From the NCBI GenBank assembly GCA_944390865.1, contig CALXRC010000001.1:62001-126000 (forward strand): 64,000 bases of DNA. The letters run 5' to 3'. Source of the DNA: an uncultured Spirochaetales bacterium. GTDB lineage: Bacteria; Spirochaetota; Spirochaetia; Sphaerochaetales; Sphaerochaetaceae. The translations under genes were made by a program, and so were the position numbers. The notes beneath the pieces were generated by a model. The model was not told the DNA's origin. It searched no databases and saw only the letters and a list, made by a program, of their open reading frames with translations. Shown here piece after piece: positions 43,185 through 47,467 of the stretch; position 1 is the stretch's first letter; the number at the start of each line of letters is the position of its first letter.

Positions 43185-43631
43185 TCAGCCTTCCAGCCAG
43201 TCAAGCAGGGCTGAGCAGCCGCAGACAATATCATCAAAACAGGTCTCAAAGTCATCCGTGTACCAGGGATCCGCGACATCTCTTGACTCGCCTGCAAAGG
43301 AAAGCAGGAGATGTGTCTTGTCATTTGACGGAAGGAGCCTTGAAAGATACCTCAGGTTGGAAGAATCCATTGCAATGATCAGGTCCGCATCATAGTAATC
43401 ATCTTCCGTGATTCTCCGCGCAGTCTTTCCCCTGCAGGAAATGCCATGTTCCGCAAGAACTGCCCGGGCTGGAGGATAGACAGGATTGCCGATTTCCTCA
43501 CAGCTCACAGCGGCAGAGGAAACTTCGTACTTTCCTTCAAGTCCCCTGTCCTTCAGCATGGCCCTGAATATGAATTCAGCCATTGGAGAGCGGCATATGT
43601 TGCCATGACAGACAAAGATTACTTTCTTCAT
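43185..43631 (-). CDS. Low-molecular-weight protein-tyrosine phosphatase
   Basis: A 148-residue LMW-PTP. The phosphate loop CHGNICRSP (Cys8 nucleophile, Arg14) is at the N-terminus, the general acid Asp is in VADPWYTDDF, and AMDSSNLRYL is the family's central motif. The length is standard. Its ATG overlaps the stop of the broken MATE gene (ATGA), so it was co-translated with that gene. The prophage now separates both from the native promoter; expression may depend on read-through or a promoter inside the MATE remnant. Confidence 0.93.
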   Translation of the reverse strand: MKKVIFVCHGNICRSPMAEFIFRAMLKDRGLEGKYEVSSAAVSCEEIGNPVYPPARAVLAEHGISCRGKTARRITEDDYYDADLIIAMDSSNLRYLSRLLPSNDKTHLLLSFAGESRDVADPWYTDDFETCFDDIVCGCSALLDWLEG

Positions 43632-44585
43632 TCGGAACTCCTTTCTTTCCCCTTCCTGTAGATGACATAGCCTGTGATATCAGCACAGATCCAGCCGACT
43701 GCAATAGAAATCCAAATGATCTCATAGCCAAGCTCTGGAGCCAGAAGATAGGAAAGCAGCACGCGCAGGCCCAATGAGATCACTGTCAGCACAAGAGAGA
43801 CTGCAGGTCTTCCAACTGCCCTGAAATGCCCGTAGAGCAGGAAAAGGACAGCAATGCCGAAGTAGAAGCTGGCCTCCAGCCTGAGATAGCCTTTGCCGAT
43901 CTCGATGATCGCGCTCTCACCGCTGTCCATGAATAGGGAAAAAAGAGGTGCGGCAAAGACGTTTACCAGCACGCTCAGCACCAGCGAGAAGCAGACTGTG
44001 ACAAGGAGCGCGCTTCTGGTTCCCTTCCTGACTCTGTCAGGCTTCCCTGCTCCCCTGTTCTGGGAAACAAAGACAGAATATGCGTTTGCGAAATCCTGAA
44101 CAGGAAGATAGGCAAATGAATCGATCTTCACTCCTGCTGCGAAGGCCGCCATGACAGCAACGCCAAAGCTGTTCACAAGTCCCTGAATCATCAGGATGCC
44201 GAAGTTCATGACAGACTGCTGCATGCAGGTGAGGAAAGAATAGCTGAAGACATCAGAAATGTCTCTGGAAGACGGCCAGAGCTCTCCTGCTGAGGGGTAG
44301 AGATTCCTGTAGCGGATCAGGGAATGCAGCAGCAGAAGCACGGCAGCTGCATACTGCGAAATCACGGTGGCAACAGCAGCTCCGCTTACCCCCTGCTCAA
44401 GGACAAGCACATAAAAAAGGTCCAGAAAGATGTTGAGGACTACAGAGATGGCGAAATAGATGACCGGAACCCTGCTTTCCCCTGTGCTGCGCAGCATGGC
44501 TGAAAGAAAGTTTGAGATGAAGGTTGCAGGCAGGCCCATATAGATTATCATGAGATAGTCTGAGAGCATCTGCTCAATCTCTGCA
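43628..44585 (-). pseudogene. MATE-family exporter, 3' part, interrupted by the prophage
   Basis: About 318 codons of a MATE protein, the C-terminal two-thirds. The first intact helix region is MLSDYLMIIYMGLPATFISNFLSAMLRSTGESRVPV, which normally lies some 120-130 residues into a ~450-residue MATE protein. Upstream the frame continues HAEIEQ, a plausible MATE stretch, only to about 44,585, where sequence like the right end of phage Mu begins. The remainder, including QNRGAGKPDRVRKG and a full second half, is intact. The missing N-terminal third should lie beyond the far end of the prophage. A truncated protein from an internal Met cannot form the first helices, so it is probably non-functional. 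Confidence 0.8.
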
Positions 44586-44644
44586 TGTAGCGGCGCGTCA
44601 AAATTGCGGCCGGTTCGTGAGATAATCTCCCCTAGTCGTTCATT

Positions 44645-45691
44645 TCACTCTGTGAAATCCTGATTACAGTAGATGGGATGCAGAACACAGTCATCAAGAA
44701 TCTTTTCCATCGAATAGCGACCTTTGCAATGCTTCACATATCCTATATATGAAGCCATAGACCGCTTGAACTTCTCCAGATCTTCCTTCCCTTCATTCAC
44801 ATCCTTTGCCAGCTTCTTGAGTCGCCTTCTGGCCGCCTTCACGTTTCTCTTCCTTGGCTTTAGATAGGTGGGATATATCCGATAGCCACAAAAGTCCACA
44901 CCATGCTTTATTGGGAAGATGGACGTCTTCGGATTCAGCTCAAGACGCAGATCAAACTCGACAATCTTTCTGATTTCCTCGAGAAGCCACGCCAGGTATT
45001 TCTTATCTGGATGCACTATCACAAAATCGTCCATATAGCGTGCATAGCACTTCACGCGAAGTTCTTCCTTAACCTTATGGTCCAGATGATCCAGGTACAC
45101 ATTTGCGAAAAGCTGAGACGACAGTGAGCCTAAGGGCAAACCGACATTACCAGGAGAAGAGTCGATGATCCTATCAAGCATCATGAGCGTATCCGGATCC
45201 TTGATAGTCCGCCTGACGAGCCCCTTCAGCACAGTATGATCAATAGATGCAAAATAGCTGTGGATATCGCACTTCAGGACATAGCCGCCACCATGCTGCA
45301 AGACTGTTCCATGGATCATCCGCTGGACAGCTTTTACTGCAGCAAGCGTCCCTTTTCCTGCTCTACATGCGTATGAATGGTAAATGAACTTGGCCTCGAA
45401 ATACGGTCGGATCACATCGATAATCGCATGGAAGGCCACACGGTCATATGGAACCGGGGCAGAGATTTCCCTCGGCTTCGGATAGGATATGCGTTTGGTG
45501 AATGTTATGCGTGGCACCCATGTCTTGTTCGCCAGCGCATCATGCAGGGTTATAAGATTCTCATCCAGGTTTGCCGTGTAACGGAGCAGCGCCTTCTTAT
45601 ATCTTCTTCCTCTCACAGTCTCAAGATATGCCCTATAGAGGTTGTCATAATCGCATACAGCAGCCCAGAGATCCCCTTTTCGTTTTGGCAT
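44645..45691 (-). CDS. DGR reverse transcriptase
   Basis: A 348-residue reverse transcriptase of the diversity-generating retroelement type. Motif A region is VLKCDIHSYFASIDH (Asp142). LPLGSLSSQLFAN (about 195-206) has the SQ of DGR RTs where other bacterial RTs have SP. The active-site box YMDD is at 229-232, and FCGYRIYP follows. It copies the template-repeat RNA and mispairs opposite adenines. ATG 45,691 follows an AAGGTGG SD. It is the last gene of the DGR cassette, 59 bases from the likely prophage terminus. A retron or group II intron RT is unlikely: no maturase or msr/msd region is seen and the TR/VR pair is present. Confidence 0.95.
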   Translation of the reverse strand: MPKRKGDLWAAVCDYDNLYRAYLETVRGRRYKKALLRYTANLDENLITLHDALANKTWVPRITFTKRISYPKPREISAPVPYDRVAFHAIIDVIRPYFEAKFIYHSYACRAGKGTLAAVKAVQRMIHGTVLQHGGGYVLKCDIHSYFASIDHTVLKGLVRRTIKDPDTLMMLDRIIDSSPGNVGLPLGSLSSQLFANVYLDHLDHKVKEELRVKCYARYMDDFVIVHPDKKYLAWLLEEIRKIVEFDLRLELNPKTSIFPIKHGVDFCGYRIYPTYLKPRKRNVKAARRRLKKLAKDVNEGKEDLEKFKRSMASYIGYVKHCKGRYSMEKILDDCVLHPIYCNQDFTE

Positions 45692-45712
45692 GCATTTCCA
45701 CCTTAAAAAGTA

Positions 45713-45750
45713 TCACGGGAGAGTTTCATCCTCTTACTCCCCTCCCGTGA
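45713..45750 (-). other. 9-bp stem-loop in the TR-RT spacer
   Basis: TCACGGGAG (45,713-45,721) and CTCCCGTGA (45,742-45,750) are perfect inverted copies with a 20-base loop, 22 bases upstream of the RT start. In known DGRs the RNA segment between template and RT is part of the structured RNA bound by RT-Avd; this stem fits such a role by position. Bases 45,692-45,850 hold no gene. Confidence 0.5.
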
Positions 45751-45850
45751 CATTGCTTTCTTTTCCCCCATAAGGGAGAAGGGATGGCGTTCCTTTTATT
45801 TCCTGGAGGTACGTCCTTCGGTCGCAGCCACAGGCTTCAACCACCAGGCG

Positions 45851-45954
45851 AAAAGCCGCGCGAAACGCATTTGTGTTCGTTGTATCGTTATTCATGTTCA
45901 AATAGCCGAGCCCTGCATTGGATCCATTGTTATAGTTGCCGCAGCGCAAAGCTA
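45851..45954 (-). repeat. DGR template repeat (TR), 104 bp
   Basis: It aligns without gaps to 46,415-46,518. All ten differences (at 45877, 45881, 45888, 45889, 45895, 45898, 45903, 45927, 45931, 45933) are T on the plus strand here, that is A in the transcribed coding strand. Thirty of 104 template bases are such adenines; the 74 other bases are unchanged. Six altered codons are AAC/AAT (Asn), two are TAT (Tyr)/one ATG, as is typical for templates tuned for diversity. It lies between the avd stop and the RT gene and is not itself a gene, though a short frame crosses it. Confidence 0.95.
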
Positions 45955-45973
45955 ACGAAAAACAACGCCACCC

Positions 45974-46333
45974 CTAATATCTTCTCGGCTGGAAACTCTT
46001 CTTCCAACCACCAAGGATTCTACCAATTTCAATCCACTTTTCACAGATGACAAGGTAGTTTTTCTGCGAAATATAGCCGAATTTCAACGCTACCTTGAAC
46101 AATGCCCTGATCCTTCTGATACGGGAATCGAGCCGGGCCGCCATCCTCAGCTTCTGCTCTGACATCCGTTCCTCATTGATATCCAGGATCAGATTCCCGA
46201 CATCCATCACAACTTCGCGGATCTGCGCACATAGCACAAACCTTTCTTCCGATGGGAACTTGCGCAGCAGATTATAGGCGTCCTTCGCACAGTCTCCCCA
46301 CTTCTCATATATTACCAGTTTCTCATCATCCAT
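45974..46333 (-). CDS. avd: DGR accessory variability determinant (Avd-like)
   Basis: A 119-residue all-helical, Arg/Lys-rich protein (start MDDEKLVIYEKWGDC). The pattern YNLLRKFPSEERFVLCAQIREVV and the basic RMAARLDSRIRRIRALFKVALKFGYISQKNY fit the four-helix-bundle Avd family (also called the 23S-intervening-sequence-protein-like fold), which binds the DGR RNA and RT as a pentamer. It sits between the target gene and the template repeat, the usual Avd place. ATG 46,333 is chosen because the longer frame starts with GTG inside a stem-loop. The SD is weak, so it may be translated from the upstream mRNA by re-initiation. Confidence 0.85.
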   Translation of the reverse strand: MDDEKLVIYEKWGDCAKDAYNLLRKFPSEERFVLCAQIREVVMDVGNLILDINEERMSEQKLRMAARLDSRIRRIRALFKVALKFGYISQKNYLVICEKWIEIGRILGGWKKSFQPRRY

Positions 46334-46339
46334 ACGTGA

Positions 46340-46374
46340 CTTGAGCCTAGCAGACACAGCCCGCTAGGCTCAAG
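46340..46374 (-). other. 12-bp perfect hairpin downstream of the variable repeat
   Basis: CTTGAGCCTAGC (46,340-46,351) and GCTAGGCTCAAG (46,363-46,374) form a perfect 12-bp stem with an 11-base loop. It lies 41 bases past the VR end and 32 bases past the target-gene stop, before avd. Hairpin/cruciform sites just past the VR are needed for efficient retrohoming in the Bordetella phage DGR; this one may serve the same purpose. It lacks a T-run, so it is a poor terminator. Confidence 0.7.
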
Positions 46375-46405
46375 ATTCAGATTTTAGATTTCAGAATTTT
46401 CAGAG

Positions 46406-47467
46406 CTACTCGATAAAAGCCGCGCGAAACGCATTTGTGTACGTGGTATCGCCATTCAAGTACAAAAAGCCGAGCCCTGCATTGGATCCACTGTAAAAGT
46501 TGCCGCAGCGCAAAGCTATTCTCGTTCCCTGGTTCCTGAAGTAGAAAGATCCTTCAGAAAGCTTTGAGAACTCAGAAGCTCCAGCTGACTCGAGAGGTGC
46601 TATCATGAGCTGCTTTGCCAGAAGAGGCACAGGCAATCCAGACTTGAACTCGATGCTAGACCATGTCACGATACCATAATCAGGGTTCGTCCATCCTTCC
46701 TCATTCGTCTTCTTCGTGACCGCATCAGAGAAAAGCACCCCGCAGTTTGACTGCTGCGTACTATCGTTCGTTCCGGCAGTCTTGGCATCGACGTAGAGAT
46801 CCATAGCAGGCCATGACGACTCCTCTAGATCGAAGTTGTTGTCGAGAGGTGTATAGAACCTTCCCTCCCTGAGATCCAGAAGATCCACGATCTCAGAACG
46901 GCTTCCTACGACATCTGCAATGCCATTAGGCGTCTGATCATGTGTCCATTCCTTGGGACCGCTTCCAGTGAGGGTGTAAGGCTCTCCTGACGTATCCCCA
47001 GGGGCCTTTCCATCAAACCTCACGCCGGTCTCATACTTGCGGACATGGCTTCTGCCATAGTTCGTATTGCCCGTGGGCTTGATACCCCTTGCGGCACACC
47101 AGAGAGCAAGAGCAGCCCATTCATGGTTCGTCATGAGATGCCAGCCCGCACCTTTGCTCTTGCAGTAGTTCCTGGCATTCGCCCTTGTCGCAAAAGAGAA
47201 CTTCACCCCAGGCATGCTTACGGCGCGGCCATCGAGGACCACGTTCTTGTATGTACTGATGAAGATCTCGGGTTTCTCCACGCCTCCCTTTATGAAAGCC
47301 GGATGCACTCCTGTTCCAAGGCTCTCATTGACATCCTCAAGCCTGAACTTGGGAATGATGTTCATGATGCTGGGGTTTCCCTTGTCATCATAAAGGACGG
47401 TCTGCGAACCGCCAGAAGCGGCTTCAACTGAAGATCTGAGCGGATCTTTGATGATTACTGTAGGCAT
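46406..47467 (-). CDS. DGR target: phage C-type-lectin-fold/FGE-sulfatase-like variable protein
   Basis: A 353-residue probable receptor-binding protein at the tail tip. The N-terminal part (about 1-85) lacks a known domain; MPGVKFSFATRANARNYCKSKGAGWHLMTNHEWAALALWCAARG begins the lectin/formylglycine-enzyme-like domain used by many DGR targets. The last 35 residues (about 318-353) are encoded by the variable repeat, ending NAFRAAFIE. Positions changed relative to the template are F324, Y325, S326, F334, Y336, L337, G339 and Y343; Thr341 is a silent change. The start has a GAGGAGG SD and overlaps the previous stop (TAATG). It is the last structural gene of the tail-fibre cluster. Confidence 0.93.
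   Translation of the reverse strand: MPTVIIKDPLRSSVEAASGGSQTVLYDDKGNPSIMNIIPKFRLEDVNESLGTGVHPAFIKGGVEKPEIFISTYKNVVLDGRAVSMPGVKFSFATRANARNYCKSKGAGWHLMTNHEWAALALWCAARGIKPTGNTNYGRSHVRKYETGVRFDGKAPGDTSGEPYTLTGSGPKEWTHDQTPNGIADVVGSRSEIVDLLDLREGRFYTPLDNNFDLEESSWPAMDLYVDAKTAGTNDSTQQSNCGVLFSDAVTKKTNEEGWTNPDYGIVTWSSIEFKSGLPVPLLAKQLMIAPLESAGASEFSKLSEGSFYFRNQGTRIALRCGNFYSGSNAGLGFLYLNGDTTYTNAFRAAFIE
46415..46518 (-). repeat. DGR variable repeat (VR), 104 bp
   Basis: It is the 3'-terminal 104 bp of the target gene region, identical to the template except at ten sites: 46441, 46445, 46452, 46453, 46459, 46462, 46467, 46491, 46495 and 46497. All are opposite template adenines and become T, C or G in the coding strand. 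The repeat's 3' end (the first 26 plus-strand bases, GC-rich with CGCGCG) is invariant and matches the position of the initiation-of-mutagenic-homing sequence; past it the two copies diverge at once. Confidence 0.95.

Follow-up and report, generated by a model that had tools for sequence, protein, structure and literature searches.

An intact Mu-like prophage in the genome of an uncultured bacterium of the Sphaerochaetaceae carries at its right end a complete and probably functional diversity-generating retroelement (DGR), which would diversify a TaqVP-type protein that is likely the antireceptor of the phage; we give this reading a probability of about 0.93. The element comprises a target gene ending in a variable repeat (VR), the accessory gene avd, a template repeat (TR) and a reverse transcriptase (RT) gene, which follow one another in this order on the minus strand (Table 1). 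Positions are those of the window, i.e., the whole 64,000-nt stretch of DNA that was analysed, unless they are prefixed with the handle of a genome or locus.

Table 1. Features of the DGR and of the right prophage junction in the window.
Feature	Position	Strand	Remarks
Host MATE transporter gene, C-terminal part	43628..44585	-	N-terminal part at L019:18014-18403
6-bp target-site duplication TGCAGA	44580..44585		other copy outside the window, G000:C1:142,026-142,031
Right terminus of Mu-like prophage (..CTACA)	44586..44590	-	59 bp past the RT stop codon
RT gene	44645..45691	-	348 aa; YMDD, GSLSSQ
TR-RT spacer	45692..45850	-	159 nt
TR	45851..45954	-	104 nt, 30 adenines
avd (accessory variability determinant)	45974..46333	-	119 aa counted from ATG
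Inverted repeat	46340..46374	-	40 nt past the VR; 12-bp perfect stem, 11-nt loop
Target (variable protein) gene	46406..47467	-	353 aa; TaqVP-like; predicted C-type-lectin fold (FGE subtype); VR at C-terminus
Invariant VR 3′ end, TTTCGCGCGGCTTTT	46415..46429	-	probable IMH-like segment
VR	46415..46518	-	104 nt; target codons 317-351

The two repeats align without gaps over their whole length and differ at 10 positions, every one of which (10/10) is an adenine in the TR; six of the substitutions are A>T, three are A>G and one is A>C. Given the proportion of adenines in the TR (30/104), the hypergeometric probability of this confinement is 1.15e-6. In the target frame, the substitutions produce Y324F, N325Y, N326S, Y334F, N336Y, M337L, N339G and N343Y, with the change at T341 being silent. 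A previous sequence-only reading had given these repeat coordinates and this gene order, ten adenine-only differences over 104 bp, a chance of a few in a million, and eight amino-acid changes plus a silent one; our recomputation reproduced each of these values, and the codon lists agree exactly. No TR codon can be converted to a stop by adenine substitution in the target frame, and the 19 adenine-bearing codons allow at most 9.4e14 protein variants (an upper bound). A second TR/VR-like sequence or second target was not found in the rest of the genome, but because this is a draft assembly (88.5% complete), further copies elsewhere are possible. The same draft yielded no 16S gene.

The RT matches RVT_1 and PHROG 1423 (the latter at E 9e-123), and its closest solved match is 8UB7 with its sister entries (E 3.9e-44; profile search, E 1.8e-92), which we take to be structures of the Bordetella phage BPP-1 bRT. 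It contains both YMDDF and GSLSSQ, the latter being a form of the DGR-type GxxxSQ motif that replaces the QGxxxSP of introns; in the comparison set YxDD occurs in 148/148 RTs and GxxxSQ in 139/148. In the RT tree, the window sequence groups with those of L049 and L066 in a single well-supported clade (0.95), the deeper nodes being weak and the non-DGR outgroup not cleanly apart. A distantly related second RT gene (28% identity) is located elsewhere in the same genome (G000:C42:4384-5025, in L013).

The Avd protein scores above the cut-off of the Pfam bAvd model (59.5 bits; cut-off 40) and slightly below that of the NCBIfam Avd model (74.6 bits; cut-off 80), and it also matches PHROG 3206; a PDB search with avd by itself returned no solved-structure match. 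The mechanical open reading frame begins at a GTG at 46357, within the post-VR hairpin, and homologues align to the ATG at ~46,333, from which we count. The RNA formed by the TR and the TR-RT spacer has a strong predicted structure (z = -4.6), and by analogy with the BPP-1 spacer, the spacer here may serve the same function. Between the TR and the RT gene there is also an imperfect GC-rich hairpin followed by ACTTTTT (45,713-45,752, minus strand), which is terminator-like and was missed by a simple scan. Scans of the region for Sigma-70 promoters and terminators gave matches at chance level.

Repeats do occur without any retroelement, and the TR and VR might be a plain duplication that has since drifted, or a chance resemblance. 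Nothing further speaks for such an origin, and it would have to produce a pattern whose probability from adenine confinement alone is 1.2e-6, next to an RT and an Avd, and to do so again at 112 related loci; the adenine statistics rule it out for practical purposes, and we regard its probability as negligible. A true RT gene with only incidental repeats is another conceivable explanation, the enzyme then being of the group II intron, retron or defence type. The top NCBIfam match is in fact a group II RT, but it is sub-threshold (129 bits; cut-off 300), and PHROG 1423 and 8UB7 are far better matches; the GxxxSQ motif, Avd and the TR/VR pair are all present as well. On the basis of PHROG 1423, 8UB7 and the motifs, we reject these identities, to which we attach hardly any probability, and retain the DGR-type RT.

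The target belongs to PHROG 2889 (function unknown) and has no Pfam match by itself; an FGE-sulfatase domain is matched in 39/45 of its homologues. A structural model built with 45 homologues (pLDDT 93.6) predicts the fold listed in Table 1, and the top solved-structure match of the model is TaqVP (5VF4; Foldseek E 1.3e-37). The two superpose with a VIA-align Z of 49.5 (1.6 Å over 340/353 residues, 40% identity), and TaqVP is also matched by sequence alone (E 5.8e-58). The next structural matches, FGE-type enzymes, TvpA and Mtd, are at Z 10-13. The gene is in the tail-gene block, directly behind fibre-like genes and a few genes past baseplate J, and its product is homologous to the "antireceptor" of phages ACA1 and ACA2, in whose VR most of the differences between these phages fall (PMC10612066). 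The target is therefore most likely a receptor-binding (antireceptor) protein, although we infer its position in the virion and its ligand. A diversified receptor-type target had also been proposed in the sequence-only reading, and the proposal is supported by the homology with TaqVP and with the ACA1/ACA2 antireceptor (PMC10612066).

The prophage that carries the DGR is 35,440 bp long (G000:C1:106,586-142,025), with the DGR as the last module at its right end. It encodes a MuA-like transposase (PHROG 310, E 3.8e-62), a MuB-like ATPase (PHROG 296, E 2.1e-55), a Mor-like late activator and a CI-like repressor, together with portal, terminase, head protease, major head protein, sheath, tape measure and baseplate J. 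The prophage ends are TGTAG..CTACA, and the target duplication is 6 bp long; that of Mu itself is 5 bp. The insertion splits a host MATE transporter gene, and other genomes of the genus carry homologues without an interruption, which fix the junction; joining the two halves restores the host codons (NTPAEIEQM), consistent with the homologues. The Mu-like nature of the phage, already proposed in the sequence-only reading, is supported by these genes (those for the MuA- and MuB-like proteins, the Mor-like activator, portal, terminase, capsid and sheath) and by the TGTA..TACA ends with the 6-bp duplication. Just inside both ends there are TGAGATAATCTC repeats (44,586-44,630 in the window and about 17,980-18,026 in L019), which may be transposase binding sites. 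We had considered TGAGATAATCTC as the phage ends themselves, and dropped this assignment because the repeats are subterminal and the homologues set the ends at TGTAG..CTACA.

In DGRs, a primer adenine in the spacer starts the copying of the TR RNA by an RT-Avd complex, which misreads adenines; the VR is then replaced by the cDNA, with the IMH and a stem-loop aiding the exchange (PMC12875486). In the window phage, the TR transcript would be copied by RT-Avd with random insertion opposite template adenines, and the mutated cDNA would take the place of the 3′-terminal VR of the target gene; the TR itself would stay as it is. Renewal of the VR in a TaqVP-type tail-block protein with a C-type-lectin fold would vary the host recognition of the phage; as the target is most likely a receptor-binding protein, host recognition is presumably what the phage diversifies.

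Both the activity of the DGR in the present host and the role of its target can be read otherwise. The DGR may have diversified the VR formerly and now be inactive in the lysogen, in a silent prophage or with an RT crippled by a missense mutation. The single VR of the window phage is a snapshot, prophages often decay, and a prophage with a frameshifted RT is known (proACA1-A; PMC10612066), but here all three open reading frames are open, the RT motifs and phage ends are intact, and the target duplication is perfect, so that we think it improbable that the element has fallen silent, and infer that it is active. The target could likewise be some other virion or cell-surface protein with a different ligand; the TaqVP paper names no ligand and describes the fold as one for general ligand binding (PMC6328139). 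However, the gene is found a few genes past baseplate J, with fibre-like genes immediately before it, and its ACA1/ACA2 homologue, in which phages of two hosts chiefly differ, was termed the antireceptor (PMC10612066). A role outside receptor binding is thus also rather unlikely, and we continue to treat the target as the probable antireceptor.

The closest relatives of the window phage are three sister phages: L049 (from genome G100, in the same family) and the IMG/VR contigs L065 and L066. Their targets are 57-59% identical to that of the window, and the upstream tail genes, read in L049 only, correspond to those of the window phage. The sister TRs are 98-100% identical (the same or two positions apart), while their VRs differ mutually at 16, 17 and 15 positions, all of which are TR adenines (16/16, 17/17 and 15/15). 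Variation of the VR confined to adenines with a constant TR, which the sequence-only reading had named as the supporting observation to look for, is therefore seen in the sister phages and not in the window phage itself. This near-constant TR with adenine-only VR variation is common to the sisters, which differ from the window phage in that no strong stem-loop follows the VR. The RTs of L049 (5150-6355) and L066 contain a helix pair of ~24 aa before GxxxSQ in three degenerate tandem versions, an insert of ~60 aa; the tripled pair comes from two separate sources, both with clearly diversified VRs.

The 3′ end of the VR is invariant, and relatives have a similar TTCGCnCnGCTTT at this position; TTTCGCGCGGCTTTT is probably the IMH-like segment. 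The inverted repeat past the VR folds strongly as DNA (z = -6.5), and is possibly a target-recognition stem-loop of non-canonical form. Many relatives have a canonical stem-loop of 8-10 bp, mostly with GATA-like 4-nt loops, about 16-61 nt past the VR. As the canonical form is present in many relatives, no strong stem is present in the closest sisters, and the loop here is 11 nt, the post-VR structure appears to be a variable part of the system. The window phage and L049, L065 and L066 might mark the target without the usual GRNA-tetraloop hairpin, by another structure or none, and still keep adenine diversification, but this is a tentative idea that we would sooner bet against.

The window DGR is a further example of a well-known system, with counterparts in phages of Thermus, Bacillus, Vibrio and Pseudoalteromonas. 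In the prophage of Thermus aquaticus Y51MC23 (PMC6328139, PMC4605624), the target (TaqVP, 40% identical over 340 residues, Z 49.5) is followed by avd, TR and RT as here, and many of the prophage genes are annotated as Mu-like, although the host is different. The nonvariable W349 site of TaqVP aligns in sequence with residue 324 of the window target, where the TR has a tyrosine codon and the VR encodes Phe. Bacillus phage BalMu-1 (NC_030945) has an RT that is 41% identical, an avd, and a target homologue annotated as SUMF1/EgtB-like; its RT is near the right genome end as in the window phage, but is followed by holin and endolysin genes. The gene order is the same as here in BalMu-1, VP58.5, ACA2 and Bise. 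Vibrio phages VHML and VP58.5, Pseudoalteromonas phages ACA1 and ACA2, and Pseudomonas phage Bise, several of which are of other phage types (Vhmlvirus, Peduoviridae), all have a target homologue (38-41% identical), a TR, an RT and adenine-confined VR differences; an avd is a further shared feature, unannotated in VHML, where the target and RT are annotated. For ACA2, VP58.5 and phiARM81mr (L058, L059 and L063), the TR lies within the annotated RT frame, so that a translated TR would form the RT N-terminus, as was remarked for the ACA phages (PMC10612066). The target homologue of Klebsiella phage Kp4871-1 (L062; 35%) has no TR/VR pair that we could find nearby, and is possibly a receptor protein that has lost its DGR; 24 Klebsiella records were matched.

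Bordetella phage BPP-1 (Mtd/Avd/bRT) resembles the window phage in presumed mechanism, gene order and the FGE-subtype C-type-lectin target, but Mtd is only remotely similar in fold (Z about 10.8). BPP-1 is not known as a Mu-like phage. The TvpA DGR of Treponema denticola (PMC4891356, PDB 2Y3C) is from a spirochaete, and its target has a similar fold (Z 12.5) with only 14% identity. Neither DGRs in spirochaetes (T. denticola; PMC4891356) nor Mu-like phages with DGRs (e.g., the transposable Bacteroides hankyphage) are new, and our literature search found no DGR paper naming Sphaerochaeta. The target family already has a solved structure, and the general picture of DGRs is unchanged; what is added is one more clean DGR, carried by a transposable prophage that is intact and has exactly defined ends, together with a comparison over a large set of loci in which the TaqVP-type target and its DGR occur in many kinds of phage.

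In that set, a TR/VR pair was obtained at 112 of 163 IMG/VR loci, a count that includes some contigs found twice. Our first pairing extended the repeats in an adenine-friendly way, which favours the hypothesis, and we therefore ran a symmetric extension, which reused the loci and seeds of the first. Across the 112 loci, 1,322 of the 1,457 mismatches from this extension (91%) concern adenines of the TR, a base that accounts for 21% of its length. The symmetric count also contains a cluster of C>T mismatches, of which only 9 are left in the core repeats, mostly at the 3′ end, and which we therefore read as the IMH/IMH* region.
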